From: Prevotella sp.
GTDB taxonomy: Bacteria > Bacteroidota > Bacteroidia > Bacteroidales > Bacteroidaceae
Length of the DNA: 47,571 nucleotides
Reading direction: 5' to 3'
Assembly: GCA_017389705.1 (NCBI GenBank)
Contig: JAFPEE010000063.1
Span: 1 to 47,571, forward strand
The notes beneath the pieces are model-generated. The model ran no database searches and was not told the DNA's origin. It saw only the letters and a list, made by a program, of their open reading frames with translations. The position numbers and the translations under genes were made by a program. Within the stretch, counting starts at the first letter, position 1. Each line of letters begins with the position of its first letter. This document shows positions 15,324-32,228 of the stretch, in pieces.

Positions 15324-16916
15324 ATGCTTAGCGAGGGTCAAAAATTTGGAGAAAGAGAGAGATATGAGCTGATTAAACAGCTTGGGCGCGGGGGGTTCTC
15401 AGAGGTCTGGCTGGCTGAAGACACGTGGACACATGTTCAAGTGGCCATTAAAGTTTATGCTCCTGGAACAGGACTGGACGAGGCCGGTATCCAGCTCTTT
15501 ACTCAGGAGTTCTCGCTGGTGTTCGACATGAACCATACAAACCTGTTGAAACCAACCTATTTCGACAGTTACGAACGCCAGCCTTATCTGATTATGCCGT
15601 TGTGTAAGAACGGCTCAGCCTTCAAGTATGTGGCGGCTAAGGAAAGTATTCCTGAGGAGGAATGCTGGAAAATGTTGCACGACGTAGCGGCCGGACTGGC
15701 CTATCTCCACGGAAAGAACCCGCCAGTGATTCACCAGGATATCAAACCGGACAATATTCTGATTAGCGATGAAGGACGGTATATGATTACCGATTTCGGC
15801 ATCAGTGCCCGTGTGCGTAGCACTATCCGCAGCAGTTCGGCAGCACAAGAGCAGAGTGGCGGTACGCTGGCCTATATGGGACCAGAACGTTTCAGCTCTC
15901 AACCCAGACCTATCATGGCCAGCGACGTATGGTCGCTGGGTGCCATGATGTACGAACTGATATGTGGCATGCCGCCTTTCGGCAACAATGGCGGACTAAT
16001 GCAGAAGAAAGGGGCTGAGATACCTATCATAGAGGAAGATTATTCACAAGAGCTGAAAGATATCATCTACAGCTGTCTGCAGGAGGAATCAGGTAAGCGT
16101 CCCTGGGCCAAAACGATTGAGGAACTGACCTATAACCACCTGCACGGCATCACCATGCCACAGGCAACGGAACCAGTCCAAACGCCACAGAATAAACCTT
16201 TGGTGGAGTCGGCGCCCGTCTATCAGCCTGAGCCTCAGCCAGCACCTGTCGCTGAGCCTAAACGCGTGCCTGTTCAACCGGCAGACAAACCTAAACCTGC
16301 CGCATGGAATCCACAGAATACTGCTGAGGCTAAGAAGAACGGCAACGCGTCGCCACTGGCCAACAAGAAGCTGCTGATTGCCGCTGCCGTTGTCGGCGTG
16401 CTGCTGATAGTGGGTTTGCTTGGTATGTGTGGCGGTGAAGAAGAGACAGCCCAGGTGGCAGAGGTGGAGCAAGTGGTGCCCCAGGTTAACCTGGACTCCA
16501 TAGCACAACTGAAGTTGGCCGTCACCAGGGAGGCTATGAAGAAGGCAGACGAGTTCCAGACGAATTATAATGAAGAGCTATTGAATCCTGAAAACGGAAA
16601 GATAGAGGATTTCTATATTGACATCATCGAGAAGTGTCGTGAATACAAGGCTGAGGCTGACCAGTATCCTGACTCACACTTGAAAGATGCCGCTCTGGGG
16701 TCAGAGATGCTGAGCCAGCAGGAAGAGGCAGTAAACCATTTGTATGACATTTACAAGTTGATGGAAAAAGATATCAAGGAACTGTTGAATATAGGATCGA
16801 AGGGTACGGCGGATTTATATCAGGAGCGTGCTAATACTATCAAGCCCTATATAGAACAAAAACTGCAGGAACAGCCAGAGGCTGAACAACATGATACTGA
16901 ACCGTCTAAACAATAA
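15324..16916 (+). CDS. Transmembrane Ser/Thr protein kinase (HQD type), kinase 1
   Basis: A 530-residue eukaryotic-like kinase. Residues 14-270 form the kinase domain: glycine loop LGRGGFSEVW, catalytic Lys43 in VAIKVY, catalytic loop VIHQDIKPDN (His137-Gln138-Asp139), DFG at 157-159, and GPERF in place of APE. Arg of the usual HRD is Gln, a non-RD kinase. A Pro/Glu/Gln-rich linker (280-345) leads to one membrane helix (about 350-368, LLIAAAVVGVLLIVGLLGM). A 160-residue acidic, helical, extracytoplasmic domain follows. The architecture is PknB/PrkC-like, with the outer domain as presumed sensor, but the domain is not PASTA. It is the first gene of the locus; the TPR/BACON gene begins 5 bases later. 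Confidence 0.93.
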   Translation: MLSEGQKFGERERYELIKQLGRGGFSEVWLAEDTWTHVQVAIKVYAPGTGLDEAGIQLFTQEFSLVFDMNHTNLLKPTYFDSYERQPYLIMPLCKNGSAFKYVAAKESIPEEECWKMLHDVAAGLAYLHGKNPPVIHQDIKPDNILISDEGRYMITDFGISARVRSTIRSSSAAQEQSGGTLAYMGPERFSSQPRPIMASDVWSLGAMMYELICGMPPFGNNGGLMQKKGAEIPIIEEDYSQELKDIIYSCLQEESGKRPWAKTIEELTYNHLHGITMPQATEPVQTPQNKPLVESAPVYQPEPQPAPVAEPKRVPVQPADKPKPAAWNPQNTAEAKKNGNASPLANKKLLIAAAVVGVLLIVGLLGMCGGEEETAQVAEVEQVVPQVNLDSIAQLKLAVTREAMKKADEFQTNYNEELLNPENGKIEDFYIDIIEKCREYKAEADQYPDSHLKDAALGSEMLSQQEEAVNHLYDIYKLMEKDIKELLNIGSKGTADLYQERANTIKPYIEQKLQEQPEAEQHDTEPSKQ

Positions 16917-16921
16917 ACATA

Positions 16922-17833
16922 ATGAAATCTTTAATAAGAGTATTATTCATAATGATGCTAGCGCTGACCCCTGCGGTAGGTGCCAGTGCGCAAGGCGCAG
17001 CCCAGAAGTATGACGAGGGCGTGGCTTTATATAAGAAAGGTAATTACCAGGAAGCCATCAAAGCGCTGAACGAGTCGATGATTGTGAACAAGAGTGCTGC
17101 AAACAAGAGGAAGTGCAACGCTATGATCAAGAAATGCCGGGCAGCCATGAAAAATCAGAAAACCAACAAGGCGCAGTCCAGACAGGAAGAAGACTTGATT
17201 AGCGTAAGGACTAATTTGGTGGAGTTTGACGGCAGTGAAGCTGCTGCTGAAATCATATCTGTGACGACATCGGGTGACTGGGGGATGAAGCTGGAACGCG
17301 AGACTGATAACGTGTGGTGTACGCTGGAGAAGTCGGACGACCACAGCTCGCTCGTCATTAAGACCAAACAGTCGAACCAGACAATGGCCCGTGAAGCCAA
17401 CATTATAGTCTTTTCTACGAAAGACGAAAGTCATGGCAAGAAAATTAAAGTAGTGCAGAGCAGAGGCAAGAAACCTGTGCTCAGGGTAGAGCCGGCAGAG
17501 CCTGAGATGATAGACAGAAAGGGTGGCGAAATTCTGCTGCGGGTGAACTGCGTGTCAGATACTTTGTATGACGACGGCAGAAACTGGACGGTGTCGAAGT
17601 TGCCTGACTGGGCCAACGTCATATCGACCAAGCAGGTTGTGGCCAAAGAGATCTTAGGCGTTGCGTTAAGCAAGGAACGTGTGGAGGTGAAAGGAAACGA
17701 ACTATCTATTATGCTGGAGCCAAACCCAACCAAGCAGGAGCGAGTGGACTATATCATCCTGAGCAGTCAGGACACGGAGCTCCGCGTCAAGCTGACCCAG
17801 CAGAAAGGTAACAAAAAAACTGGTGCAAGATAA
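16922..17833 (+). CDS. Secreted protein with TPR-like and BACON-like domains
   Basis: A 303-residue protein with signal peptide MKSLIRVLFIMMLALTPAVGASAQ. A tetratricopeptide-like helix pair follows (about 25-57, AQKYDEGVALYKKGNYQEAIKALNES), then a Lys-rich segment. Two beta-sandwich repeats that look BACON-like come next: each has a Trp-rich strand pattern (TSGDWGMKLERETDNVWCTLE; NWTVSKLPDWANVIS) and ends with a VVQSRG or LTQQKG strand typical of the family. BACON domains are common in Bacteroidota exported proteins, usually for binding. In this operon it may be an outer partner of the kinase sensor domains. It is followed after 27 bases by the zinc-ribbon/FHA gene. No catalytic residues are visible. 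Confidence 0.82.
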   Translation: MKSLIRVLFIMMLALTPAVGASAQGAAQKYDEGVALYKKGNYQEAIKALNESMIVNKSAANKRKCNAMIKKCRAAMKNQKTNKAQSRQEEDLISVRTNLVEFDGSEAAAEIISVTTSGDWGMKLERETDNVWCTLEKSDDHSSLVIKTKQSNQTMAREANIIVFSTKDESHGKKIKVVQSRGKKPVLRVEPAEPEMIDRKGGEILLRVNCVSDTLYDDGRNWTVSKLPDWANVISTKQVVAKEILGVALSKERVEVKGNELSIMLEPNPTKQERVDYIILSSQDTELRVKLTQQKGNKKTGAR

Positions 17834-17860
17834 TTACCGATTTACTAAAAACATAATGCT

Positions 17861-18742
17861 ATGAGATGTAACAATTGTGGATACGACAATGATCCAGGTG
17901 TAAGTGTCTGCGTGAAGTGCGGACATCAGTTGCAAGACGCGGGAGGTTATAACCCCAATACCTATCAGGCTGGTGGCTATGCTCCTAACTACGGAGGCGG
18001 GGCAGAACCAGCCCCAAGACCCACAGTTGTAGGTGCTACAGGTATGCAGGAACCCCTGCCAAAGCCTACGATGATAGGTGCGGCAGGTGCTGCTATGGCA
18101 GAGCCTATGCCCCGCCCTACACGTGTGATGAACGGCCCAATGATGCAGGAGCAAGTACGTGCGGCCGCAAGCCAGGGTAATAAGGCATGTCCAACCTGTG
18201 GTTATCCGGTTATGGGTGACTTTGCCATGTGTCCCAGCTGTGGTGCACAGCTTAAGCCTCAACCTGCTCAAATGGTTAACGAGGCTACGGCAAGAGTAGC
18301 AAAGCCAGCTCCTTCTGAGGAGGAGATGAATATTGTCACTACCTGCGACGCTTGCGGTAAGGAGGTGCCTGCCAGCTATGCACACTGCCCGTACTGCGGT
18401 GAAAAGATTCACCAGAAGACGGTGTTCGTACGGCGGCATCATGTAGAACCTCCTAAGCCCAAATGCTCTTTGACGCTCGTTCCTGAGGAGAACGAACAGG
18501 TGGAGAGAGTGAACGACTACGAGGGAGCCAGCATCATGCTGAACAGGGAGAACACTGAGCCCAACAACCGTTCCATCACCTCGAAGGTACAGGCAGAGCT
18601 GATTTGCGAAGATGACAAATGGTATATACTAAACCATAGCGAGCTGTGCTCAACCGTCGTGGAGGCCAACCGTAAGATAGAGCTTTTGCCAGGCGACATC
18701 ATCGTGCTGGGTGACAGACGTTTCAAGTTTGAGAAGAAATAG
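17861..18742 (+). CDS. Zinc-ribbon adaptor with a C-terminal FHA-like domain and repeated PxPT motifs
   Basis: This 293-residue soluble protein has three zinc-ribbon units: CNNCGYDN...CVKCG (3-21), CPTCGYPV...CPSCG (110-128) and CDACGKEV...CPYCG (162-180). Between the first two lies a low-complexity Gly/Pro region with three similar motifs, PRPTVVG (Thr55), PKPTMIG (Thr70) and PRPTRVM (Thr87), which look like repeated phosphoacceptor sites. The C-terminus (about 201-293) has an FHA-like pattern: an Arg in LNRE, SKVQAEL at the usual SxxH site with His replaced by Gln, and LLPGDIIVLGDRRFKF. Phosphothreonine binding may therefore be weakened or altered. It has no signal peptide. The kinase-FHA gene starts 15 bases downstream, so it is a probable substrate or scaffold of the cluster kinases. 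Confidence 0.85.
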   Translation: MRCNNCGYDNDPGVSVCVKCGHQLQDAGGYNPNTYQAGGYAPNYGGGAEPAPRPTVVGATGMQEPLPKPTMIGAAGAAMAEPMPRPTRVMNGPMMQEQVRAAASQGNKACPTCGYPVMGDFAMCPSCGAQLKPQPAQMVNEATARVAKPAPSEEEMNIVTTCDACGKEVPASYAHCPYCGEKIHQKTVFVRRHHVEPPKPKCSLTLVPEENEQVERVNDYEGASIMLNRENTEPNNRSITSKVQAELICEDDKWYILNHSELCSTVVEANRKIELLPGDIIVLGDRRFKFEKK

Positions 18743-18757
18743 CGAACTTTCCGAGAG

Positions 18758-20047
18758 ATGAGCTCCTATCAGGTAGTAGACCGATGTGACTTTCAGCCAG
18801 GACAGACTATCAATAATCTGTATACGGTGAGAAAAACCCTTGGTGAGGGGTCATTTGGTGTGGTCTACCTGGTAGACGACTTCCGTGGAGGCAAATATGC
18901 GCTGAAACTTCTCCGCCTTTGGGAGGTACCGTCAGAAATCAGGCAACCTCTGATGGACAGGTTCGAGATGGAATTCAAGACAGGACAGATAGCCTGCGAC
19001 AACTTGGTGCAGTCTGTTGACTTTGGACGAGTGGGAGGTAACCCTTTTATCGTAATGGAGTTTTGTCCTGGCGGTGACCTGGAACCCTTGCTTGGGAAAA
19101 GCGGAACACGCGCGCCGCGCATTTGTACAGACATACTGACAGGACTCGGTGCCCTGCACGCAGAAGGCAAGGTACACCGTGATCTCAAACCTGAAAATGT
19201 ATTGTTCAAGCAGAGCGGAACAGCTGCTCTAACAGACTTTGGGATATCAGGTGACCGCAATCATAGAATGACACAGCGTAACATCTTTGGACGCCCAGAC
19301 CAGATATTCGGAACCTATGCCTACATGCCGCCAGAACAGGTGAATAGGGCCAGGGGGGGGGCCACGGTGCTGCCTACAACGGATATCTTCTCGTTTGGCG
19401 TGCTGACTTACCAGCTACTGACAGGGCTGCTGCCTTTTGGCACACTGGAGTCGCACAACGAATTGGCAGAATACCAGATACGCGGCAAGAGAGGACAATG
19501 GGACAGAGAACGGTTGCGTCACATTGCTGACGGAGAAAAGTGGCTGAGACTAATAGAGGGGTGCATAGCACCAGACTTTAAACAGCGTATACAGACCGTC
19601 GACGAAATAATCCACATGGTGCCTCAGTCGCCCTTCAGTTCCTATGCTCCACGTCCAGTACGAAGGCCAATCTACCAGCCACCGCAAGCTACCCACGGCT
19701 ATCAGCTGAGGATCTTGCAGGGCGAGGAATACGGGCGCATTTACAACCTGAGTCAGATGATAGCGCGAGGAATAGGCATATTGACAGTAGGACGACAGAC
19801 GGACAATGCAATCTACATCAAGTCGGACAGCTCTGATTTCCTCTCTCGTCACCATTGTACCATCGAAACGGGACAGTCGCAGTGGTTCATCCGCGACGGA
19901 CAGTGGAGAAGTGCAACCCGCCTGTGGGAAGCCTCGAGCAACGGGACGTTTGTCAACTCACATCCTGTCACTTCCAACGGATACTATCTGAGTCCAGGCG
20001 ATATTATTGCCATCGGTGATGTTACATTGAGATTTGAGAATTATTAA
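18758..20047 (+). CDS. Soluble Ser/Thr kinase fused to an FHA domain (HRD type), kinase 2
   Basis: A 429-residue fusion with no membrane helix. The N-terminal kinase (about 20-290) has LGEGSFGVVY, Lys50 in YALKLL, the canonical VHRDLKPEN (His140-Arg141-Asp142), DFG at 160-162 and YMPPEQ. A Pro/Arg linker (300-312) leads to an FHA domain (about 315-429) with intact phosphothreonine-binding signatures: VGRQTDN, SRHHCTIE and SSNGTFVN. It is the only one of the four kinases here with HRD, so it alone fits activation-loop control. The FHA domain could recruit a phosphorylated partner such as the adjacent zinc-ribbon protein. A run of nine G at 19353-19361 encodes Arg199-Gly200-Gly201 inside the kinase domain and is a possible slippage site. 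Confidence 0.93.
   Translation: MSSYQVVDRCDFQPGQTINNLYTVRKTLGEGSFGVVYLVDDFRGGKYALKLLRLWEVPSEIRQPLMDRFEMEFKTGQIACDNLVQSVDFGRVGGNPFIVMEFCPGGDLEPLLGKSGTRAPRICTDILTGLGALHAEGKVHRDLKPENVLFKQSGTAALTDFGISGDRNHRMTQRNIFGRPDQIFGTYAYMPPEQVNRARGGATVLPTTDIFSFGVLTYQLLTGLLPFGTLESHNELAEYQIRGKRGQWDRERLRHIADGEKWLRLIEGCIAPDFKQRIQTVDEIIHMVPQSPFSSYAPRPVRRPIYQPPQATHGYQLRILQGEEYGRIYNLSQMIARGIGILTVGRQTDNAIYIKSDSSDFLSRHHCTIETGQSQWFIRDGQWRSATRLWEASSNGTFVNSHPVTSNGYYLSPGDIIAIGDVTLRFENY
19353..19361 (+). repeat. Homopolymeric G9 tract inside the kinase-FHA gene
   Basis: Nine consecutive G bases lie in the codons for Arg-Gly-Gly after the PPEQ motif. A one-base slip would end translation before the rest of the kinase lobe and the FHA domain. 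Such long G runs are uncommon in coding sequence. Confidence 0.85.
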
Positions 20048-20066
20048 CCCCTAAAACTATAATAAT

Positions 20067-21866
20067 ATGAAAGAACAAAATTACAAACGCACTGTAGCCG
20101 GCTCTGTTGGTGCTGGTATGGGTGCTATTTTTAATGGTTCAGGACGTACTTATTACATTCTGGAGCACAAAACGAGTTCTAAGTACCATATGGCTGGTGA
20201 GTCACAGAAGATTATCATCGATCAGATTGAACTGGGACGTGATGCTTCTTGTCAGGTTCGCTTTGACGAATCGTTCGAAACGGTTAGTCGTAAACATGCC
20301 GCCATCGTTCGTGATGGCCAGAACTGGCAGCTGATTCACCTGTCAAGTGCTAATCCTACTTTGGTGAATGGGCGTCCTGTGCAGGGAAGCTACTACCTGC
20401 AGTCGGGTGACGAAATCCAGTTGTCAGTAGGCGGCCCCAGACTGGGATTCATCGTCCCGCAGGGTAAGCAGTCTCTGACGTCGAGCATTAAGCTGACAGA
20501 GCGCATGAACCTGTTCCGCCAGCAGGCACTCCGTCCATACCGCCGGGCCATATGGATATTGTCAGCTCTGCTGATACTGGCCATTCTGGGCTTTGGTGCA
20601 TGGAACTATAAACTGAGTCTGGACAATTCCGCACTGCGCCAGGAGATGGCCACCTATCAGATTAAGCTCGATTCGCTGTCATCAGTGAAGCAGGGACTGA
20701 TGCAGGAACAAGAGAAACTCAATCAGGAACTGGCAGCAGCTCCCGCAGCAAGGCGCGAGGAAATACGCCAGCGCATTGTATATGTGAACCGTCAGCTGTC
20801 AAGCGTTGCCGACGAGGCTAACCGCGTCCAGCAGCAACTGGCAACTACTCGGCAACGTGCCATCGATAGCGGTGTGTCCGATGATATCATCGAAGGCGTG
20901 GTCAATCCTGCTGCCCCCGGTGAGTCATCTGCAACCATTGCTTCCATCGGTGATCCGGATGAGAACCATAACGTTTCTGGTGTTGCCACACCTATAGCTG
21001 GTGAGGCTGCTGCACAGGAAGGTGCCATGAATGCCAATCCAACGGCTCACGGTGATGCCAGCGGTACCATTCGTGACTACTACAACCATATTTATTCGCT
21101 GAAGATACGTCGCATCACCTGTGAGCGTGACGGACGTTCCTTCGACCCAGGCATCTCACTGACTGACGTCGTTTGTGGTACTGCTTTCGTGCTGAGTAAC
21201 GGTACGCTGGTCACTGCTCGACAGAATATCGAACCTTGGATCTTCTGGCGTCAGCTGGGAGGCAGATGGCGTGAGTTGCTGGCCAACTACAAGGCTATGG
21301 GATTCAATATCGTCATCGAATATGATGCGTATAGCACTACAGGCACAGCCCACAAATTGTCGTTTAACAATCAGGACTTCCGTGTTGACCGCAGCGGTGA
21401 CGTAACCGAGGTGATTGATGAAGTCATCAAGGATGTTCGAGTACTGATTAAGGAGAATGGATTCAGAATCAGCTCCAGCGAATTCCGCAATCGTAGCGTA
21501 ACAGTGGTTACACCCAGTTCACAGTGCTATGCCATTCTGCCAGGCAAGGGTGGTGCAGGTATCCCCTATGATGCAGGTGCCTCGCTGTCGAGCGATGGTG
21601 GTACTGAAGTACAGGTTGCCGGATTCAAGAACAATCCTGACATCCATAATTTGGCTAACTATATTAGTTACTTCAAGTCGAGCACTTCTCGTGCCGATAC
21701 CCGCAATGGTACTATCGTACTGCAGGATGCCAATCGTAATGCCGGCTATCTCGGATCGCCCGCATTCTTCAAGGAGAAAGACGGATCCTATCGTGTCATC
21801 GGTGTGATGATTGGCCAGCTGTTTGGCGAAGACCGTCTTGTTCCTATTGCAAGATGTAATAAGTAA
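20067..21866 (+). CDS. FHA-transmembrane-coiled coil protein with an inactive-looking chymotrypsin-like domain
   Basis: A 599-residue protein. An N-terminal FHA domain (about 50-130) has intact signatures: LGRDASCQV, SRKHAAI and NPTLVNGRPV. One membrane helix follows (161-178, AIWILSALLILAILGFGAW), then a Gln/Glu-rich coiled coil (about 182-265) and a Gly/Ala/Pro linker. The C-terminal region (about 345-595) resembles a trypsin-like serine protease: CGTAFVLSNGTLVTARQN matches the strand before the catalytic His, but that residue is Gln386; and NAGYLGSPAFF matches GDSGGP, with Leu562 at the catalytic Ser position. It is probably a pseudoprotease. Topology places FHA in the cytoplasm and the protease fold outside, so it could carry a phospho-signal across the membrane. 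Confidence 0.88.
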   Translation: MKEQNYKRTVAGSVGAGMGAIFNGSGRTYYILEHKTSSKYHMAGESQKIIIDQIELGRDASCQVRFDESFETVSRKHAAIVRDGQNWQLIHLSSANPTLVNGRPVQGSYYLQSGDEIQLSVGGPRLGFIVPQGKQSLTSSIKLTERMNLFRQQALRPYRRAIWILSALLILAILGFGAWNYKLSLDNSALRQEMATYQIKLDSLSSVKQGLMQEQEKLNQELAAAPAARREEIRQRIVYVNRQLSSVADEANRVQQQLATTRQRAIDSGVSDDIIEGVVNPAAPGESSATIASIGDPDENHNVSGVATPIAGEAAAQEGAMNANPTAHGDASGTIRDYYNHIYSLKIRRITCERDGRSFDPGISLTDVVCGTAFVLSNGTLVTARQNIEPWIFWRQLGGRWRELLANYKAMGFNIVIEYDAYSTTGTAHKLSFNNQDFRVDRSGDVTEVIDEVIKDVRVLIKENGFRISSSEFRNRSVTVVTPSSQCYAILPGKGGAGIPYDAGASLSSDGGTEVQVAGFKNNPDIHNLANYISYFKSSTSRADTRNGTIVLQDANRNAGYLGSPAFFKEKDGSYRVIGVMIGQLFGEDRLVPIARCNK

Positions 21867-21875
21867 TGTATTATC

Positions 21876-23063
21876 ATGTCAGAAGTAAAATTCAAGTTAG
21901 CGGCAGGAACTAATGTCGGACTTTATCGGCAGAACAATGAGGACAACTTCATTGTGTGTCCTGACCTTGCCACACCCCACTGGGTAATGCCCCAAGACGA
22001 AGACTATGCTGAGCTGAGTCCCTACGGTGCCTTGTTGGTAGTAGCAGACGGCATGGGCGGCATGAATGCCGGAGAAGTGGCGTCAGCAATAGTTGTTGAG
22101 ACTATTCAGCAGATGTTTACGGCGGAAGCCATAGCCCCCATTGTCGATGACAGCAAGGCTATTGTTGAGTTCATGGAAAATGTGGTAGAAACAGCAGACT
22201 TGAATATTCTGAACCGTAGCCATACTGATAGCAGTACCCAAGGCATGGGTACTACTATCGTCATGGCATGGATCATTGGACAAAGGGCCTATGTCTGTTG
22301 GTGTGGTGACAGCCGTTGCTATGTGTATAACAGCGAACGTGGCATCGCACGTCTTTCCAAGGACCACTCTTTCGTACAGGAGTTAGTTGACAGGGGCGAG
22401 TTAGATCCGGCATATGCCAGTGACCATCCGCTGTCGAATGTCATTACTCGGTGTCTGGGCAATGAAGAGAAACGAGCAAAGCCAGATACCCGCATCTATG
22501 AGCTGTACGATGGAGACGTCATCATGCTGTGCAGCGATGGACTTTGCGGCCTGTGTCAGGATGAGCTGATAGAGGAGGTGATTGCAGAGTTTCATGAGTC
22601 TCCGAAGGATTGTCGCAACGAGCTCATCTCGGTAGCTTTGGCCAAGGGTGGTCACGACAACGTTACCGTAGCGCTTTGTACTGTCAAAATGGACAGAACG
22701 GTTGCAGTCTCTGATGATGAGGAAGCGGAAGACGGGGTGTCCATGACTGTTGAAGGAAAATCTTTTGGAGATTCAGCGACGGACTCGGACCAGCAGAAGA
22801 CCTCCGATGCTGACAATCAACAGGAGGAAAAGTCAGAAGAGAAAGAAGAGTTACAGGCTACGTTACGCAACACTCCTGTCAAAGGTCGTTCGCATAAGTT
22901 CCTATGGTCGGTATGCCTGTTACTGCTTGTTGCAGTTGCAGCTGTTTGCTTCATCTATATCAATGAAGACTGTGCGCCTGTCAGGCAGCAAATAAACTCG
23001 TTTCTGAATGAAGTAAGTAAAGCAATATCCAATTTTATTAAATCAATTAATTCAAAACTATGA
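21876..23063 (+). CDS. PP2C-family Ser/Thr phosphatase with a C-terminal membrane anchor
   Basis: A 395-residue PPM/PP2C phosphatase, the only eraser in the locus. Metal-binding and catalytic motifs are clear: RQNNEDNF (Asp23), VVADGMGG (Asp58-Gly59), GMGTTIVMAWI, GDSRCYV, LCSDGLCG (Asp221) and GGHDNVTVALC (Asp261). After the catalytic domain (about 5-270) come an acidic Glu/Asp/Gln-rich linker (280-335), a membrane helix (about 342-362, FLWSVCLLLLVAVAAVCFI) and a short outer tail. It should reverse phosphorylation by the neighbouring kinases at the inner membrane. It starts 9 bases after the FHA-pseudoprotease gene and overlaps the next gene by 4 bases (ATGA). Confidence 0.95.
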   Translation: MSEVKFKLAAGTNVGLYRQNNEDNFIVCPDLATPHWVMPQDEDYAELSPYGALLVVADGMGGMNAGEVASAIVVETIQQMFTAEAIAPIVDDSKAIVEFMENVVETADLNILNRSHTDSSTQGMGTTIVMAWIIGQRAYVCWCGDSRCYVYNSERGIARLSKDHSFVQELVDRGELDPAYASDHPLSNVITRCLGNEEKRAKPDTRIYELYDGDVIMLCSDGLCGLCQDELIEEVIAEFHESPKDCRNELISVALAKGGHDNVTVALCTVKMDRTVAVSDDEEAEDGVSMTVEGKSFGDSATDSDQQKTSDADNQQEEKSEEKEELQATLRNTPVKGRSHKFLWSVCLLLLVAVAAVCFIYINEDCAPVRQQINSFLNEVSKAISNFIKSINSKL

Positions 23064-23332
23064 AAAGAACAATATTATCAATGGCAGCAGCGCTCTTGAT
23101 GGGACTAGCTGCCGTATCGTGTGCCTCCCATCATTCGGTACGTACTACAACCTACACTCAGGGAGAGTACGTGTCCCAAGGCGAATGGCAGAAATGTGCC
23201 GTGTGCGATGGCAAGGGATCTTGTAATGCATGCCGTGGCACTGGTCGTATCAGCGGTGACACTTGTAAGCGCTGCAAAGGTTCTGGCAAGTGTAACACCT
23301 GTAACGGAAATGGTGGATATACCATCAACTAA
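23060..23332 (+). CDS. Small lipoprotein with DnaJ-type CxxCxGxG zinc-finger repeats
   Basis: A 90-residue protein starting MKRTILSMAAALLMGLAAVSC, a lipoprotein signal whose lipobox Cys is residue 21. The mature part has four CxxC units: CAVCDGKG (46), CNACRGTG (55), CKRCKGSG (69) and CNTCNGNG (78). This is the pattern of the DnaJ central zinc finger, but there is no J domain. In DnaJ this module binds zinc and unfolded protein in the cytoplasm; as an exported lipoprotein it could bind zinc or act in thiol chemistry. Its ATG overlaps the PP2C stop by 4 bases, tying its expression to the phosphatase. A strong hairpin follows it. Confidence 0.88.
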   Translation: MKRTILSMAAALLMGLAAVSCASHHSVRTTTYTQGEYVSQGEWQKCAVCDGKGSCNACRGTGRISGDTCKRCKGSGKCNTCNGNGGYTIN

Positions 23333-23347
23333 TCACACCACTTCTAC

Positions 23348-23392
23348 AGCGAAAGAAAGTGTGTCCAATCTGACGACACACTCTCTTTCGCT
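23348..23392 (+). terminator. Intra-locus hairpin, terminator or attenuator
   Basis: Two 18-base arms (23348-23365 and 23375-23392), complementary except at one position, flank a 9-base loop. Only a few T bases follow (ATCTTAATATAAA) and no promoter is evident before the next ATG at 23406. It may reduce read-through into the second half of the locus or stabilise the upstream mRNA 3' end. Confidence 0.65.
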
Positions 23393-23405
23393 ATCTTAAT
23401 ATAAA

Positions 23406-25037
23406 ATGAAGCTAGAGGAAGGTCATATAATAGCAGAACATTACAAACTGCTGAAACAGTTGGGACACGGCAGTTTCGGAGATGTTTGGCTGGCGCATAA
23501 CTTGCTGGCCGATATTGATGTGGCTATCAAGTTCTATGGAACTTTTGACATGAAAGGTTTAGATGAGTTCCGTAATGAGTTCAAGATGGCTTATCAGCTA
23601 CATCATCCTAATCTTTTGAGCATCAGTCATTTTGATGTATGCGACAATTGTCCTTACTTGGTAATGCCCTATTGCGCCAACGGTTCTGTAAGCAGCCGAG
23701 TGGGGAAAATGAGTGAGGATGAAATCTGGAAATTCGTGCTTGACGTCTCTAGCGGACTGGCCTTCCTACACAGTTTGCAACCTCCTATTATACATCAGGA
23801 TATCAAACCTGATAACATTTTGATTACCAGTGACGGCCGATACGTCATATCAGACTTTGGCATCAGCCGCAGCATGCGTACCAAGATGAGCAAATCGGCC
23901 AATGACATGGGCAGTTCTGGAACAATCGCCTATATGGGTCCAGAACGGTTTTCGGAAATGCCTGTCATTGTGTTAGCAAGCGATGTATGGGCTTTTGGCA
24001 TGACGCTCTACGAGTTGATGAATGGAGATATACTCTGGGAAGGTATGGGGGGATGCGTTCAGCTAAACGGTGCCCGGATGCCTGTTATTGATAAACGCTA
24101 TTCAGCAGCATTGGCCAATCTGGTAATATCCTGTTTGGCAGCAGAAACCTGGGACAGGCCTACGGCAGAGCAAATCCATGAGTATGCCTCTGCTTTTATA
24201 CATCAGAAACCTCTGCCACCCATCATGCCTAAGACAGTAGAAAAGCCAAAGTCCCTCTTTCAGCCTGAATCCTATTATGGGCACCAACAGCCACAACTAA
24301 GGTCTGAAAGACAGAATATCAGGGAAAGAAGACAGGCAATGAAGCCTGTTGTTACCCATAATGATATTCTGGATAGTTCCGTCTTTGAAAATCTGAACTG
24401 GAAGAAAATAGCAGCAGTTGCCGCAGCTATCGTCTTTGGTATTTCCCTGATTACAGGAGGTGTAAAGTATTATAACGTCGTATCTGAGGAACAGGAATTC
24501 GTGTCTTGTCAAACCATTCAAGACTATGAGAAATTTATCAAGAACTATCCCTCATCCTCTTATGTTGAAACAGCAAGGAAGCGTATTAACGACTTAAGAC
24601 CTGCTGTTTCTGCTGGAGCGCAGCCAGTACCTGAACCACAGCCTGCACCGGAACAGTTGGAAAAGCCAGAACAAAAGATTCAGCAGGCGGCAACGTTGCA
24701 GGAAGTAGTTCCTGAAAAGGCTATTGGAAAGAAGAATACAAATTCTGTCGTAACATCTGCACGTTCTTCTTCCTCCACTTACAATTCGGATGACAGGGCA
24801 TTCTTTAGCTGTGTGACAGCCAAGGACTATCATAACTACTTGAAACAATTCCCTAATGGCCGCCATCGCGAGCAGGCCACCAATGCACTAACCGTTCTTG
24901 TGAACAGTCAGGGAGCGAACGAAGCTCCAACAAATAGGGTTATAGAAAGACAACCACGGATGCGCTCTGGCAGGCCATCTGTGCACAGAGCCCCCAGGCC
25001 TGGTTTTGGAGGTCCAAGAAGCAGACCTCACCCATAG
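23406..25037 (+). CDS. Transmembrane Ser/Thr protein kinase (HQD type), kinase 3
   Basis: A 543-residue kinase. The kinase domain (about 14-265) has LGHGSFGDVW, Lys42 in VAIKFY, IIHQDIKPDN (His130-Gln131-Asp132), DFG at 150-152 and MGPERF. A linker rich in Pro/Gln/Arg leads to one membrane helix (334-352, IAAVAAAIVFGISLITGG). The outer part holds two copies of a 30-residue helical repeat: 365-394 (EFVSCQTIQDYEKFIKNYP...) and 466-495 (FFSCVTAKDYHNYLKQFP...). They are separated by a Pro/Gln/Ser-rich spacer and followed by a basic Arg/Pro/Gly tail. The repeat resembles the TPR-like units of Bacteroidota envelope proteins. It comes 73 bases after the zinc-finger lipoprotein gene, behind a hairpin, and the next kinase gene has its own promoter. 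Confidence 0.92.
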   Translation: MKLEEGHIIAEHYKLLKQLGHGSFGDVWLAHNLLADIDVAIKFYGTFDMKGLDEFRNEFKMAYQLHHPNLLSISHFDVCDNCPYLVMPYCANGSVSSRVGKMSEDEIWKFVLDVSSGLAFLHSLQPPIIHQDIKPDNILITSDGRYVISDFGISRSMRTKMSKSANDMGSSGTIAYMGPERFSEMPVIVLASDVWAFGMTLYELMNGDILWEGMGGCVQLNGARMPVIDKRYSAALANLVISCLAAETWDRPTAEQIHEYASAFIHQKPLPPIMPKTVEKPKSLFQPESYYGHQQPQLRSERQNIRERRQAMKPVVTHNDILDSSVFENLNWKKIAAVAAAIVFGISLITGGVKYYNVVSEEQEFVSCQTIQDYEKFIKNYPSSSYVETARKRINDLRPAVSAGAQPVPEPQPAPEQLEKPEQKIQQAATLQEVVPEKAIGKKNTNSVVTSARSSSSTYNSDDRAFFSCVTAKDYHNYLKQFPNGRHREQATNALTVLVNSQGANEAPTNRVIERQPRMRSGRPSVHRAPRPGFGGPRSRPHP

Positions 25038-25063
25038 AATAAAATGTTTTTCCGATAAACTAT

Positions 25064-25093
25064 ATTGTAATTTGAAAAAAATGATTACCTTTG
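25064..25093 (+). promoter_or_regulatory. Internal promoter before kinase 4
   Basis: TACCTTTG at 25086-25093 fits the -7 consensus. ATTG at 25064-25067, 18 bases upstream, is a plausible -33. The box overlaps a TTG (25091) that would otherwise lengthen the next frame, supporting the ATG at 25124 as start. Confidence 0.6.
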
Positions 25094-25123
25094 CATCCTC
25101 ATAAAGCGAAGATCTTTGGAAAG

Positions 25124-26695
25124 ATGAATATTTTTGATAACAGATATGAACAAGAAACTCTCTTAGGAAAGGGTGCTTTTTCAGAGGTATGGAAAGTAAG
25201 GGATATACAGACAGGTGTGTCTCTTGCTTTGAAAATATATAATTCAGCCAACGGAGCATCAGTAGACGGCTCCGAAATGCTAACGCATGAATTTGCCTTG
25301 ATGGTTAACGTTAACCACAAGAATTTGCTTCGTCCCCTGTTTTATGCTACAAGTGAGAATCGTCCCTATTTGATCCTCCCCTATTGTGAAAGTGGAAATA
25401 TAGGGAAAATGGTAGGAAAAATGACGGAAGATGAAGCTTGGAGACTATTTAGGGATTGCGCAAGTGCCCTGAGTTATCTGCATGCGTTGCACCCACCAAT
25501 TCTTCACCAGGACATTAAGCCTGCCAATATTCTGATAGGCGACAATGGCGAGTATATGCTGACTGACTTTGGCGTAAGTACCCAGTTGAAAGCATCACTG
25601 AGTCGCGTGTCCAACCAGGAGTTAGCACTTTTTTCAGCAGGAACTGTCTCCTATATGGCACCAGAACGATTCTCGCGCAACAATTTGCCTATAATGGCAA
25701 ACGACATCTATTCCCTTGGCTCTACGGTATATGAGATGTTGTCTGGTTTCCTGCCTTTTGGAAATGACGGTGGTCTGTTGCAGAAGAAAGGAGCAGAAAT
25801 TCCTGAACTGCAAGGTGATTTCTCGCCTATGTTGAAAAAGACGCTCGATCTTTGCCTGCAGGCTGAACCTTGGGATCGTCCTACAGCCGAGGACTTAGAG
25901 GATATTGCTAACAAGGCCCTTACCCATCGAGAGCTGCGCTGGAAAGAAGAGGAGGAACCGGTCCCACAGCAGAATGAAGAGTCTGCCTCAGAAACTATTA
26001 CTGAGCAACCAACTCCTCTCAAGGAAGCACCTGTTGATGTTCCGCCTGTCGCTCTTCATGAAATAGAAGATACCATAGGAGAGGAACATGCGCCAAGTCG
26101 CAAGAAACTTTATGGTATCATCGGTGCCATTTCTGCTGTGGCACTCTTAATAGGTGGATTCTTTTTCTGGAAATCAGGTGTCCAGGAGAATAGCCAACAA
26201 GAAGTCATTAATGCTGATTCCTTGAAGAGGATTGTCGATGACGTGGAATATGAGAAGTGCTTGGTACTCTTTCAGCAGCCCGACAGTACGCGCGAGGCGT
26301 TCAACAGGATTGTTGCCTTAGCCAAAAAAGGCCATCAGGGAGCTGTTCATGAAGTGGCTTATACCTATGCCTGGGTAGCAAGGGATCCAGAGTCAATACG
26401 TCGTAAGAAAGCACTGGGATGGGGCGTTGGCGAAAATGGTCTCCCCGTATCAGAAGAAATTAACAAACAGGCGGTGGTGTGGCTTGACAAGTCTATCCAG
26501 CTGTCAGATTCTACAGACTATCAGGCATTGTATTGGCGCTCGTTCTATTATATTAATGAGATTCTCGGAGAGCGTGACTTCGAAAAAGCCAGCCAATTGC
26601 TCCGTAAGTCGAGTCTCGAGGCGAACAAGAGTCAGGACTATGTCTTCAAGAACAAAATAGATGATACTATTCATCAGTTGGAAAAGATTAAATAG
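25124..26695 (+). CDS. Transmembrane Ser/Thr protein kinase (HQD type), kinase 4
   Basis: A 523-residue kinase starting at ATG 25124; the TTG at 25091 lies in the promoter. The kinase domain (about 8-265) has LGKGAFSEVW, Lys37 in LALKIY, ILHQDIKPAN (His128-Gln129-Asp130), DFG at 148-150 and MAPERF. It is closest in wording to kinase 1; both share GNNGG/GNDGG-L-QKKGAEIP late in the domain. An acidic linker is followed by a membrane helix (330-349, GIIGAISAVALLIGGFFFW). The outer domain of about 170 residues is helical and Sel1/TPR-like, with AKKGHQGAVHEVAYTYAWVARDP and DFEKASQLLRKSSLEA. The WG-repeat gene starts 3 bases after its stop. Confidence 0.92.
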   Translation: MNIFDNRYEQETLLGKGAFSEVWKVRDIQTGVSLALKIYNSANGASVDGSEMLTHEFALMVNVNHKNLLRPLFYATSENRPYLILPYCESGNIGKMVGKMTEDEAWRLFRDCASALSYLHALHPPILHQDIKPANILIGDNGEYMLTDFGVSTQLKASLSRVSNQELALFSAGTVSYMAPERFSRNNLPIMANDIYSLGSTVYEMLSGFLPFGNDGGLLQKKGAEIPELQGDFSPMLKKTLDLCLQAEPWDRPTAEDLEDIANKALTHRELRWKEEEEPVPQQNEESASETITEQPTPLKEAPVDVPPVALHEIEDTIGEEHAPSRKKLYGIIGAISAVALLIGGFFFWKSGVQENSQQEVINADSLKRIVDDVEYEKCLVLFQQPDSTREAFNRIVALAKKGHQGAVHEVAYTYAWVARDPESIRRKKALGWGVGENGLPVSEEINKQAVVWLDKSIQLSDSTDYQALYWRSFYYINEILGERDFEKASQLLRKSSLEANKSQDYVFKNKIDDTIHQLEKIK

Positions 26696-26698
26696 ACT

Positions 26699-28486
26699 AT
26701 GATGATAAGAAACTTACTTCTTGCTGTATTACTGTTGATGTCGTGCAATGTAAGTGCACAGGTGGCCCGATGGATTATACATCCTGAGTATGACTATATA
26801 AAGATGCTAGAGAGTGGCTTTTACGTAGCATCCAAAAATGGCCAGTATGGTATGCTTGATGATCAGGAGAAGGTCGTGGTACCGATGCAGTATGACAGTA
26901 TTTCGGTGTTCAACTCCCATAAAGCACTACTTTATAAAGGAGGAAGATGCATAGGTTACATCAGCGATCGTGGTGAGGTAAAAAACATTGCATCCCTTCA
27001 GTTTGACGTTGTTGGGCTCAATAGCTTTTCTGATGGTTATCTGGCAGTCTGCAACTCTTCTGGCTATTTCTATATCCGCGCCAGTGATGATGAGAAACTG
27101 GGTCCATACACTTATGCTACACCATTCTCCGAAGGCTATGCATGGGTGAAGGTGCCTAAATCCATGAAGCATGTTCTTGACGGTTCCTATACTTTCCAAG
27201 TATTGTCTGCCAATACAGGAGGACCAGTGAACCTATCCTTGGGTGAATACGAGGAAGACGATATCGATTTTGTCTCTTCATGCTGTAACGGGAAAAGCAT
27301 CATCGTGCTGAAAAAGCGGTTCTATGAATACGAGTATAAGACGGGAAAGCTGACTCCACTGGCTACCGATGACAATCCAACAAACAAGAAGACACGTGTG
27401 ACCGCTTTGGAACGTCCTGTCGATGTGAGAGGAAACGGAAACGGCTATACGATACGTTTCAAGCAGGGAACTATGATTTTTGACGGTCTGATGCGACTCA
27501 CTAGCATTACGTACGAAGGTCAGGTACCACGACTCTTTGAGAAACCGAAGGTTGTTATTCCTGCTCCGAAGAGTAACATTAACGGTATTCGTTATAACGA
27601 GAATCCGCTCTTGGGATTGGCTTATGAAGGAAAGGAAGTTTTGCCAGCACAGTTTGACAATGTAATTATGTTGCGGGGAAATCACGCTCTGCTGAGAAAA
27701 AGCGGCAAGATGGGCGTGTTGGCTATTGACCCGAATACCCATCTCCGTTTTGTGCTTAACGACAATCGCAACATTGGTTTTGAGCATCGGCTGACTAATA
27801 CGGATGTAAAAGTCATATGTCCGCCTTATATGAATCCCAAGTTGATGACCTTGTCAAGCGCTGACAATGATTGTGTCATCAATGCTGATACACGGAGTGA
27901 AAGCGTCAATGTTGAAACGGCAGTGCTATCCTATAAGTGCTCGCTGAAAATACCTGAAGAGATTAGCTCTGAACAGACTTCGTCTTCTGTGAAATTTGTC
28001 CTAAATTACGATGGATTGAAATACGTTCCATGCTCGATTTCTTTTAACACGTGGTATGTCAATAATTACAATGTTCAGTTGCTCTCACATCAGTTTGTCG
28101 GTTCCGCCCTGAATGTCGAACTGTTGGTGAAAAACAATTCACGTTACGAAGACGGCAATTACTTTTTCGATGTAAAAATCGTTGCCGATGACTCGACAAC
28201 TTGTACTTACAAGCGACTTAACGAGGAATTGTATCAAGCTCATTTCTACCGTTGGACTGAGGATGTCGTCAAGTTTAATGTTGACATCACCGAGGAAGGA
28301 TGTCCGACTATTAGTTATTCTTATTCTATACCTGTGAAGTCAGGCAATTCTTCAAAGAAAGATAAGGCTAAAAGCGAATCCACCGAAGCAGATTACCAGT
28401 CGCAGGGACAGGTAAAACGTAAGTTTTCACGTCCAAAAACTCCAGCCAAGAAAGAAGATTCCAAGATTATTCTGATTCCTAATTGA
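26699..28486 (+). CDS. Secreted WG-repeat protein
   Basis: A 595-residue exported protein with signal peptide MMIRNLLLAVLLLMSCNVSAQ. The N-terminal half contains WG-type beta-hairpin units, for example KNGQYGMLDDQEKVVVPMQYDSISVF and GGRCIGYISDRGEV, and a later unit with NPLLGLAYEGKEVLPAQFDNV and KSGKMGVLAID. The C-terminal half (about 380-540) looks beta-rich. The tail is basic and Ser/Lys-rich. WG repeats are found in surface and signalling proteins; no ligand can be inferred. A Cys in MSCNVSA might be read as a lipobox, but the MSC-NVSAQ context fits a type I signal better. It follows kinase 4 after 3 bases, so the two are probably co-expressed and may interact in the periplasm. Confidence 0.82.
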   Translation: MMIRNLLLAVLLLMSCNVSAQVARWIIHPEYDYIKMLESGFYVASKNGQYGMLDDQEKVVVPMQYDSISVFNSHKALLYKGGRCIGYISDRGEVKNIASLQFDVVGLNSFSDGYLAVCNSSGYFYIRASDDEKLGPYTYATPFSEGYAWVKVPKSMKHVLDGSYTFQVLSANTGGPVNLSLGEYEEDDIDFVSSCCNGKSIIVLKKRFYEYEYKTGKLTPLATDDNPTNKKTRVTALERPVDVRGNGNGYTIRFKQGTMIFDGLMRLTSITYEGQVPRLFEKPKVVIPAPKSNINGIRYNENPLLGLAYEGKEVLPAQFDNVIMLRGNHALLRKSGKMGVLAIDPNTHLRFVLNDNRNIGFEHRLTNTDVKVICPPYMNPKLMTLSSADNDCVINADTRSESVNVETAVLSYKCSLKIPEEISSEQTSSSVKFVLNYDGLKYVPCSISFNTWYVNNYNVQLLSHQFVGSALNVELLVKNNSRYEDGNYFFDVKIVADDSTTCTYKRLNEELYQAHFYRWTEDVVKFNVDITEEGCPTISYSYSIPVKSGNSSKKDKAKSESTEADYQSQGQVKRKFSRPKTPAKKEDSKIILIPN

Positions 28487-28563: not shown

Positions 28564-28590
28564 TTCGGTTAACAAATAAGAAGAAAGCGG

Positions 28591-29223
28591 ATGAAAAGAG
28601 TTATCATTTTACTTGCTGCTGCGCTGTCGCTGATAACGGCAGATGCGCAGATTGTTAAAGAGGTGATGGACAGTGTGAAGTCCGGCACTAAAACGGGTAA
28701 TGTGAAAACCATGGTTTCTTCGGTGAAAGGTGCCCTCTCAAATAAAGCTGTTAATGCGGAAAAAATAGTCGGCACCTGGCAATATGTCAAGCCTGTAGTG
28801 CTCTCCACTTCTGGCAGAATATTGTCTAAACTGGCCGCAAACAGCATTGACGACAAACTGGAGGACCAGCTGAACAAATATTGTGAGAGGGCCCATGTAT
28901 CTGCAGGTAATACTTATTTCGAGATACGTGATAATGGCACTTACACCTATTCTTTTGTGGACAAGAAGACATCAGGCACTTGGATGGCCGACGGTGACAA
29001 GATGCGTTTTGCCGTCAAGAATGTTCAGGCGGTAGAGATGGTCTCCCGCATGGAGCACAACGACACACTGGCGCTTGTCATGGACACCTCGGTGCTCATC
29101 AAAGAGATTCAGGAGCAAGGAGGTCTTTCTGACAGTAAGGCTAACAACGGCTTGATTAAATTATCCAAGCAGGTAAAGAAGATGAAATCCGGATTCCTTC
29201 TGGTCCGCAAACACCGTAAGTAA
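28591..29223 (+). CDS. Secreted DUF4923/lipocalin-like protein
   Basis: A 210-residue protein with signal peptide MKRVIILLAAALSLITADAQ. An N-terminal helical stretch (IVKEVMDSVKSGTKTGNVKTMVSSVKGAL) is followed by a lipocalin-like beta region beginning VGTWQYVKPVVLSTSG, with YFEIRDNGTYTYSF, KKTSGTWMADGDKMRFAV and a C-terminal KKMKSGFLLVRK. This organisation matches the Bacteroidales DUF4923 family, whose function is not known. It ends the kinase 4 / WG-repeat run after a 104-base gap; no separate promoter was found before it. Confidence 0.8.
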   Translation: MKRVIILLAAALSLITADAQIVKEVMDSVKSGTKTGNVKTMVSSVKGALSNKAVNAEKIVGTWQYVKPVVLSTSGRILSKLAANSIDDKLEDQLNKYCERAHVSAGNTYFEIRDNGTYTYSFVDKKTSGTWMADGDKMRFAVKNVQAVEMVSRMEHNDTLALVMDTSVLIKEIQEQGGLSDSKANNGLIKLSKQVKKMKSGFLLVRKHRK

Positions 29224-29243
29224 GTATTATGGCAATAAATAAG

Positions 29244-29273
29244 TTGCCGAATCAAATTATTTTCCTATCTTTG
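29244..29273 (+). promoter_or_regulatory. Promoter before the 29296 gene
   Basis: TTG (29244-29246), 19-base spacer and TATCTTTG (29266-29273). The ATG lies 22 bases downstream, so this gene can be transcribed independently of the kinase cluster. Confidence 0.7.
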
Positions 29274-29295
29274 TGGCACATTTATAAATAAAACA

Positions 29296-30153
29296 ATGAT
29301 GATGAGAAAAATAGTATTATTCCTTTTGTCGCTGACAATGGTTTCAGACATGATGGCACAGGGTGAGAACACTGTGCAGAACGTAAGCGTGATGGACCTG
29401 ACCTATACGGTAAAGGAGGGTACCAAGTCGGGGGTGGCAACGGTGGTGGGTGCCGTACTCGACGTTCTCTCCGACCAGACTACCACCGAGGAACCGGGCT
29501 ATGCTGATGCCGTGCGAGCCAGCGTTGTCATGGCCTTGGGTAATGTGCGGCGCTTCACCGTCACTGACGGGCTACAGGTGAGTCCTAACGGAGAGACAAA
29601 CATCATTGCCGACGGCACTATCAACTACATCTCGGTCACAAAGGAATTGAAAACGTCATCAGATAACAAGGACAAGACACCACAGTTCTACGCGCAGATC
29701 AATCTGACGCTCAACATGAAGGACGCTGTAAGCGGCAAGGTGTTGAACAGTCAGGCATTTGAGGTAACCAGGTCGAGTTGGCTGTGGTACAAAAGTACCG
29801 ATACAGCCATCAAGAACGCATTGGAGACACTACGGGCAAAGATTGAGAAATACTATAACACTGCTTATCCTTACACGGCACGGATTCTAGAGCGCGGTAT
29901 GGAGAAGAACGACAAGCAGAAGGAGCTTTACATTGACCTCGGTGCAGCTCACGGTCTGCAGGAGGGTACGCACTTCAACGTCTACACCATCGGTAGCATA
30001 GGCGGAAAAGAGACACGCAAGCAGATTGGCCGTCTGAAAGTGAAGTCCGTTGAGGGCGACGAGGTCAGCCTCTGCAAGGTCACTTCCGGTGGTAAGGATA
30101 TCAAGGCTGCTATCGATGCAGGACAGCAGCTGCTCATCATTTCTACAGATTAA
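29296..30153 (+). CDS. Exported protein, possibly CsgG/LpoB-like
   Basis: A 285-residue protein with signal peptide MMMRKIVLFLLSLTMVSDMMAQ. The mature part has strand/helix patterns seen in CsgG-like and related envelope proteins: VMDLTYTVKEGTKSG, a helix with YADAVRASVVMALGNVRRFTVTDG, then NIIADGTINYISV, QINLTLNMKDAVSGKVLNSQAF and a C-terminal region with LYIDLGAAHGLQEGTHFNVYTIG, a small barrel-like fold. The assignment is tentative. It converges on the sensor-kinase gene with a single base between the two stops and no terminator hairpin. It may be unrelated to the kinases, since it has its own promoter. Confidence 0.65.
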   Translation: MMMRKIVLFLLSLTMVSDMMAQGENTVQNVSVMDLTYTVKEGTKSGVATVVGAVLDVLSDQTTTEEPGYADAVRASVVMALGNVRRFTVTDGLQVSPNGETNIIADGTINYISVTKELKTSSDNKDKTPQFYAQINLTLNMKDAVSGKVLNSQAFEVTRSSWLWYKSTDTAIKNALETLRAKIEKYYNTAYPYTARILERGMEKNDKQKELYIDLGAAHGLQEGTHFNVYTIGSIGGKETRKQIGRLKVKSVEGDEVSLCKVTSGGKDIKAAIDAGQQLLIISTD

Positions 30154-32206: not shown

Positions 32207-32228
32207 AGGGCTATGCGGGGTTTAATGT

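Follow-up and report, generated by a model that had tools for sequence, protein, structure and literature searches.

A conserved putative operon of kinase, phosphatase and FHA genes in Bacteroidales whose membrane FHA protein carries a predicted trypsin-like outer domain

Gene content of the locus

The window analysed here is a 47,571-nt stretch of DNA from Prevotella sp. (assembly GCA_017389705.1, contig JAFPEE010000063.1, forward strand). Ten consecutive + strand genes at 15324–28486 make up a putative phosphothreonine-signalling cluster. Four of them form a conserved core: a zinc-ribbon/FHA protein (ZR-FHA), a soluble kinase fused to an FHA domain (K2-FHA), a membrane FHA protein (FHA-TM, for its transmembrane, TM, helix) and a PP2C phosphatase. 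The membrane FHA protein ends in a predicted extracytoplasmic trypsin-like domain, which was overlooked by a first-pass annotation of the same DNA. That annotation had described a write, erase and read locus and inferred from it an envelope-sensing pathway in which several kinases feed a zinc-ribbon/FHA hub reset by one phosphatase. The features, with the basis of each call in brackets where one applies, are:

15324..16916, + strand: K1, membrane kinase; Pkinase domain 14–265, HQD (non-RD) loop, one TM helix 350–368, outer domain without a Pfam match (Pfam, hydropathy)
16922..17833, + strand: BACON-domain protein with an N-terminal hydrophobic stretch, secreted or anchored (Pfam, hydropathy)
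17861..18742, + strand: ZR-FHA, zinc ribbons and a degenerate C-terminal FHA domain (about 18473–18739), candidate phospho-hub (Pfam, family profile)
18023..18025, 18068..18070 and 18119..18121, + strand: candidate Thr55, Thr70 and Thr87 in linker 1 of ZR-FHA (family alignments)
18419..18421, + strand: candidate Thr187 in linker 2 of ZR-FHA (family alignments)
18758..20047, + strand: K2-FHA, soluble kinase (18821–19612, HRD loop) with a C-terminal FHA domain (about 19784–20017) (Pfam, hydropathy)
20067..21866, + strand: FHA-TM-pseudotrypsin protein (Pfam, family profiles, hydropathy)
about 20229..20423: its predicted cytoplasmic FHA domain
about 20436..20606: its juxtamembrane segment and TM helix, very conserved
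about 21168..21854: its predicted extracytoplasmic trypsin-like domain, in which Gln386, Cys487 and Leu562 take the place of the catalytic His, Asp and Ser
21876..23063, + strand: PP2C phosphatase; motifs RxxNED, DGMG, DGL and GGHDN present, C-terminal TM helix 342–360 (Pfam, hydropathy)
23060..23332, + strand: DnaJ-zf, a 90-amino-acid lipoprotein-like protein with lipobox AVSC and CXXCXGXG zinc-finger-like repeats (under the Pfam cut-off)
23406..25037, + strand: K3, membrane kinase; HQD loop, one TM helix 335–353, outer part with a weak YfiO/TPR match
25091..26695, + strand: K4, membrane kinase; HQD loop, one TM helix 340–358, first ATG at 25124
26699..28486, + strand: WG-repeat protein with an N-terminal hydrophobic stretch, coming after K4 in the related loci L163 and L165 too

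The ten genes and their tight spacing, as first annotated, were confirmed: all are open reading frames (ORFs) at these coordinates, and the nine computed gaps are 5, 27, 15, 19, 9, -4, 73, 53 and 3 bases, the 53-base gap before K4 presuming a TTG start (86 bases to the first ATG). Pfam bore out the four kinases (Pkinase in each, E 1.5e-47 to 1.2e-37), the single PP2C, the three zinc-ribbon stretches of ZR-FHA, the WG repeats (E 1e-20) and the lack of any PASTA or VWA match in the ten proteins. Other domain calls stood in part. The FHA domains of K2-FHA (E 1.3e-14) and of the membrane protein (E 6.7e-16) were recovered, and that of ZR-FHA went unreported by Pfam in the window copy (E<=0.1); BACON was found (E 1.5e-9) in the protein described as TPR/BACON, with TPR under the cut-off; and the DnaJ-type zinc finger is present as a CXXCXGXG match under Pfam cut-offs. 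Hydropathy gives a single internal TM helix for K1, for K3, for K4, for PP2C and for the FHA-TM protein, and none for K2-FHA or ZR-FHA, leaving three membrane kinases, one soluble kinase and a single membrane-spanning reader where several had been proposed. Four of the six Pkinase matches of the whole genome fall in this cluster.

A membrane FHA protein with a trypsin-like outer end

The profile of the FHA-TM family finds both FHA (GarA) and HtrA/trypsin structures, and Pfam reports Trypsin_2 in 56 of 58 family members, the window row not being one of them. Against a profile of 77 intact homologues, the window's C-terminal domain matched over nearly its whole length (E 9.4e-30). Twenty shuffles and seven other window proteins gave E>=0.95 or no match to this profile, and L058, a relative without the trypsin-like domain, did not score either. 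At the other end of the protein, FHA motif residues G57, S74, R75, H77 and N101, which we take to be the phosphothreonine-binding positions, are invariant in the 58 members; the family thus has the conserved motif of an FHA reader and is predicted to bind phosphothreonine. Six Lys/Arg residues lie in the 20 positions before the TM helix and two after it, and this positive-inside bias suggests that the FHA domain is inside and the trypsin-like domain outside. The juxtamembrane segment between them (consensus SIGLTRRLSLFRQQALRPYK) is strikingly conserved family-wide, with a mean column identity of 65% (28 rows).

Of 86 complete rows (window counted; L144 is cut by a contig end), 77 retain the whole catalytic His-Asp-Ser triad. 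The window has Q-C-L in its place, and the other degenerate rows are L052, L053, L054, L057, L058, L146, L147 and L150. Seven of these nine, including the window, group in a single supported clade (100/95). Six same-genus relatives, L161, L163, L164, L165, L166 and L167, read by pattern and off the tree, also lack the triad motifs. Judged by these residues, the outer domain of the window is trypsin-like and catalytically dead, and that of most relatives is catalytic; set beside S1/Trypsin_2 proteases, the window protein shares the homologous domain and lacks the catalytic His-Asp-Ser. The pathway may therefore have an extracytoplasmic output in addition to its sensors.

A four-gene core conserved across genomes

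The FHA-TM protein was matched in 9 of 198 genomes of the order and 20 of 399 of the family (search by protein). Thirteen of the 20 family matches are strong (E<=6e-69, own genome included) and seven weak. The 18 loci fetched around matches all share the ZR-FHA, kinase-FHA, FHA-TM and PP2C genes, the zinc-ribbon gene of one of them, L059, being recognised only by the ZR-FHA profile. Scanning named genomes yielded 139 confirmed relatives, from which 80 loci were kept, nearly all from Bacteroidales: Prevotellaceae, Bacteroidaceae, Muribaculaceae, Paludibacteraceae, Tannerellaceae and others, with one record titled Clostridia. Record titles place the relatives in Bacteroidales of rumen, gut and other sources. 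Duplicate removal left 86 loci besides the window.

Confinement to this strain, which the first-pass annotation had named among the findings that would tell against its pathway, is not what the genomes show. All four core genes are present in 78 of the 86 loci, the eight without the full set being contigs of 3.3–12.3 kb. Every one of the 62 loci with a length of 14 kb or more has all four, for which reason the recurrence goes beyond chance. Gene by gene, ZR-FHA was found in 80 loci, K2-FHA in 82, PP2C in 83, one or more additional kinases in 72, a gene here called X in 68 and a BACON-family profile match in 44. The conserved unit is the four genes, and K1, BACON, DnaJ-zf, K3, K4 and WG are accessory. 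The complete order K1, BACON, ZR-FHA, K2-FHA, FHA-TM, PP2C, DnaJ-zf, K3, K4, WG is repeated in L163 and L165, where in both cases an additional ORF separates K3 from K4.

Distribution is patchy: the juxtamembrane profile was matched in 8 of 200 same-genus genomes and in 3 of 395 across the phylum (own genome in both). Two of the three phylum matches, L168 and L169, come from outside the class of the window, and their core genes are ordered differently. A mobile origin was considered and rejected, the FHA-TM protein having no match in phage records and the plasmid matches of K2-FHA (710 records, all <60% identity, six covering 80% of the query) being generic kinases only. Two occurrences, L128 and L113, are in records titled Candidatus Azobacteroides and Candidatus Symbiothrix, bacteria that live with termite-gut protists.

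Kinases around the core

All four window kinases have catalytic HxD and DFG motifs, as active Hanks kinases would. K2-FHA has an HRD loop in 72 of 72 relatives. Among 86 other kinases, 71 have HQD, eight HRD, four another HxD and three no recognised motif, and 77 have one TM helix after the kinase domain. These motifs fit a soluble RD kinase common to the loci, accompanied by membrane kinases that vary and belong mostly to the non-RD class, which does not require phosphorylation of the activation loop. The membrane kinases around the core vary between loci, and the earlier remark that the outer domains differ in each kinase is supported in the form of fast-changing outer parts: K1 is 66–79% identical to five same-genus relatives in its kinase domain and 20–33% in its outer part.

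A candidate zinc-ribbon/FHA hub

The ZR-FHA family profile matches Sulfolobus ArnA in two parts, zinc ribbon and FHA (E 6.2e-12), an N-terminal ribbon and a C-terminal FHA domain being the marks of ArnA-like adaptors. The window's own FHA domain lies under Pfam detection; Pfam reports the FHA domain in 40 of 47 family members (E<=0.01). The family is mostly divergent, yet two linker threonines are near-invariant (46/47 and 45/47), which supports the proposed zinc-ribbon hub. A second alignment has Thr in 71/74 and 67/74, with flanking conservation of 0.07 and 0.05; there the first site aligns to Thr55 of the window and not to Thr70. In an alignment-free count over the 68 of 74 proteins with two recognisable ribbons, T[VI]x[ED] occurs in linker 1 of 51 (3.1 on average in shuffles, 11 at most), and linker 2 contains T[VIL] in 67 (22.9 on average in shuffles, 33 at most). 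The corresponding S[VIL] pattern shows no excess over shuffles in the ZR-FHA linkers. Linker 1 of the window protein holds three P-[RK]-P-T repeats. Two loci carry a tandem pair of zinc-ribbon/FHA-like genes (L118:7222-8700 and L132:7058-8587).

Selection on the pseudotrypsin domain

The FHA-TM half of the window protein is 84–91% identical to all six same-genus relatives compared. In three of them the pseudotrypsin domain is also close, at 92.6% (L164), 92.6% (L165) and 79.9% (L163) identity, with nonsynonymous divergence (dN) of 0.047, 0.053 and 0.134 respectively and a proportion of synonymous differences (pS) of 0.68–0.75, near saturation. The same relatives are 74–80% identical in their kinase domains, 65–68% in their PP2C domains and 24–51% in the outer parts of K1, K3 and K4. 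Low dN and high identity within the type indicate that the dead domain is not decaying and has stayed under purifying selection long after catalysis was lost. The pseudo-active site itself is kept among close rows (TARQNIxPW, GYLGSPAF). This strong conservation holds only within the type, for L164 and L165 and less so for L163; L161, L166 and L167, described below, ruled out the notion that no other part of the cluster is as well conserved as the dead domain.

Gene X and other accessory genes

Gene X encodes a secreted-looking protein of about 300 amino acids (for example L075:5372-6226) and lies immediately downstream of the FHA-TM gene in 68 of 68 cases. Four members tested gave no match above Pfam cut-offs (one weak, E 0.029). 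A signal-peptide-like start is present in 45 of 55 proteins, and the tail is basic: Lys/Arg number 6.2 over the final 20 residues, compared with 2.1 per 20 across the body (55 proteins). This tail raised the idea that active homologues have the Lys/Arg specificity of trypsin, which was rejected: by the S1-pocket numbering that we assumed for them, the position before Ser is not Asp in the rows read.

Counted without regard to phylogeny, 67 of 76 intact-triad loci carry X, as does one of nine degenerate-triad loci (85 of 87 rows; L144 and L135 were omitted at contig ends, and L102 was scored as X present though truncated). A link between X and an intact triad is suggestive by count and not by phylogeny. 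Genome-wide, too, no X was found for five X-less loci (controls matched 4/4) or for twelve more (controls 3/3). X as an obligatory partner of an active protease was rejected, with two to three independent pairs of changes, an association that is not significant, and intact triads that occur without X.

Relatives of DnaJ-zf were found in four of 107 loci (L163, L164, L165 and L166). A MotA/TolQ/ExbB-like protein occurs in 15 of 86 loci and its coiled-coil partner in 14 (e.g., L056:3935-5552), and the pair also appears at L168:10179-11812 and L169:10065-11635, a possible proton-channel link within the operon. In a scan of 86 of 132 accessory proteins of at least 140 amino acids, TPR, Sel1, LRR, WG and outer-membrane-protein barrel domains were among the families listed (25 of 127).

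A possible route from phosphothreonine to the cell exterior

We tentatively favour, with somewhat less than even confidence, the reading that, in the conserved phosphothreonine operon, a cytoplasmic switch connects extracellular sensing with an extracellular output. The variable single-pass kinases K1, K3 and K4 would sense something outside and, together with soluble K2-FHA, would phosphorylate threonines of the zinc-ribbon/FHA hub, from which PP2C would strip the marks. The canonical FHA domain of the membrane protein would bind the phosphorylated hub, and the state of the hub would be relayed through the conserved juxtamembrane and TM segment to the outer trypsin-like domain. In most relatives that domain retains a protease triad and usually has X beside it, which may be its substrate or its regulator; for the clade that includes the window, the protease, dead by its residues and maintained by selection within its type, is most likely a regulated binding domain. 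Gene set, conservation, topology signals, triad state, conserved threonines and low dN are observed. Which kinase phosphorylates what, the binding of FHA to hub, the direction of the signal and the role of the protease or pseudoprotease are what we infer from them.

The maintained pseudoprotease domain suggests that cytoplasmic phosphorylation is tied to an event outside the cell. Most work on bacterial Ser/Thr kinases treats them as outside-in sensors; a phosphothreonine reader inside a transmembrane protease would turn internal phosphorylation into proteolysis or regulated binding outside. If this is true, the output of a Bacteroidota kinase network becomes directly testable. Natural active and dead versions of the protease allow comparison, and parts and residues for mutation are clear. 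The earlier interpretation would keep its write, erase and read module, membrane kinases, hub, single PP2C and conservation, and lose its plural readers and two secreted proteins (below), while gaining the trypsin-like half that it had missed.

Several observations weigh against this proposal. The relative loci were picked through an FHA-TM protein search, so their co-occurrence counts are conditional on that gene. The FHA domain of the hub is degenerate, the threonine sites of the window copy do not fit the consensus of the family (E is missing at +3, and NPW is missing behind Thr187), and the linker threonines could serve a purpose other than phosphorylation. Nine of the 76 intact-triad loci lack X, as do the distant L168 and L169, and on the tree three triad changes and six X changes yield the two to three independent pairs mentioned above. 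Finally, the outer domain of L161, L166 and L167 is only 42%, 39% and 47% identical to that of the window (20616–21866), with FHA-TM halves at 84–87% and K2 kinase domains at 69%, 75% and 76%. By sequence comparison, distinct outer-domain types stand behind a near-constant FHA-membrane half; they may arise by swapping or by fast divergence, and they lower confidence in one shared output.

A purely outside-in pathway is the strongest competitor, though an unlikely one. There the trypsin-like domain would be a sensor that binds peptides or debris and alters how the FHA domain engages the kinases, and the window's pseudoprotease would be a pure ligand receptor of several types. The conserved pseudo-active site is as expected for a binding pocket, a dead domain is unable to cut, and outer types behind an FHA-TM half of 84–91% identity are often seen in receptors. 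However, a full triad kept in 77 of 86 rows is unneeded for a mere sensor, and the TM kinases already supply outer domains.

We consider it improbable that the cluster is an anti-phage or conflict module of the KKP kind, with kinases as effectors restrained by PP2C. The PADLOC kinase models mad6 and PD-T4-6 match all four kinases, the distribution is patchy, and the variable outer parts fall into distinct types; according to the excerpted text of PMC7159879, trypsin domains that serve as effectors in vWA-MoxR conflict systems are as a rule inactive. However, NCBIfam defence-kinase scores are far under their cut-offs, so that the PADLOC matches look like general kinase similarity; defence families were matched once each by accessory genes, among the families listed (25 of 42; 86 proteins). 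The lack of a match for the FHA-TM protein in phage records and the predominance of membrane and secreted proteins also argue against such a module.

A threonine-phosphorylation switch of a secretion machine, comparable to PpkA-PppA-Fha of the type VI secretion system (T6SS), is very improbable: like parts (TM kinase, PP2C, FHA protein) and a weak match to a T6SS FHA model (TagH), far under its cut-off, favour it, but TssC (PF17541, the sole T6SS family tested) was found in only two of 14 operon-bearing genomes and none of 14 control genomes, and not in the window's genome (85.8% complete), and the accessory domains listed above are of other kinds.

Comparison with known systems

PpkA-PppA-Fha controls the T6SS post-translationally by threonine phosphorylation; the operon differs from it in that its FHA reader itself spans the membrane. 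DegS-type proteins are membrane-anchored trypsin-like proteases and share with the FHA-TM protein the anchor and a trypsin/HtrA-like domain on the outer side, but here an FHA domain occupies the cytoplasmic end, and the catalytic residues are missing from the window copy. In LapD-LapG, cyclic di-GMP exerts inside-out control of periplasmic proteolysis through a protease and a membrane part that are separate proteins. An outside protease under a cytoplasmic signal would be common to both systems, with cyclic di-GMP and two proteins there and, by our proposal, phosphothreonine here. Unlike PknB/PstP, the operon has no PASTA domain (PknB_PASTA_kin scores 121–169 bits against a cut-off of 450), and unlike the TerY-P triad it has no VWA (TerY) match in the ten proteins.

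The ArnA-ArnB-ArnC/PP2A network of Sulfolobus comes close in its adaptor: in the passages drawn on from PMC12852372, ArnA, a zinc-ribbon and FHA protein, is an adaptor central to Hanks-kinase and phosphatase signalling. ArnA binds the phosphorylated vWA protein ArnB (PMC12852372, same passages), whereas the window set is without a VWA match and its canonical readers would be the kinase-FHA and the membrane FHA-trypsin protein. KKP systems, as far as the consulted part of PMC11341870 describes them, are prophage-borne and have a PP2C gene with two kinases behind it, one fused to FHA and one with a cold-shock domain. The operon likewise has PP2C with kinases, one of them FHA-fused, and K3 and K4 come after PP2C and DnaJ-zf; it differs in that no cold-shock domain was matched in the four window kinases and the FHA-TM protein has no phage-record match. 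The type VII secretion loci T7SSc/e also place a kinase, a PPM phosphatase and FHA in one locus, with the FHA proteins in T7SSe, and are tied to EssC/EccC and WXG100 (PMC11217815, in part); Pfam found neither EssC/EccC nor WXG100 among the ten window proteins.

In a full-text literature search, with most subscription journals outside its coverage, none of the titles and opening lines of abstracts gave an account of the gene set or of an FHA-TM-trypsin protein. The individual domains are all known, and the architecture and the maintained pseudoprotease branch appear new. It is possible, and we hold this more tentatively still than the route itself, that the operon represents an undescribed class in which cytoplasmic phosphothreonine is read by FHA and relayed, within one polypeptide, to a trypsin-like protease outside the cytoplasm, which in the window's clade would be a dead signalling domain of distinct types, with kinase outer domains diversifying as in a recognition system.

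Flanking genes and a second locus

The first-pass annotation had added two secreted proteins, S1 (28591–29223, DUF4923) and S2 (29296–30153), to the cluster. Their membership is not supported: tblastn (E<=1e-4) found no relative of either in 107 fetched loci, among which, of the closest relatives, only L163 and L165 reach beyond the WG gene. Pattern searches for the operon limits gave 14 terminator-like sites against 12.1 expected and 32 promoter-like sites against 20.2, promoter patterns being uninformative for Bacteroidota. On the - strand of the window, two adjacent, mutually similar ORFs of 683 and 696 amino acids (30155–34319) look by eye like histidine kinases; they run convergently towards the cluster's end. 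The same genome carries a second, different phospho-locus on contig C143 (L070:8554-16193), with a 986-amino-acid kinase, a 1103-amino-acid protein (several AAA and AAA_lid_6), a 192-amino-acid double-zinc-ribbon/FHA protein and a 248-amino-acid PP2C-like protein in a row.

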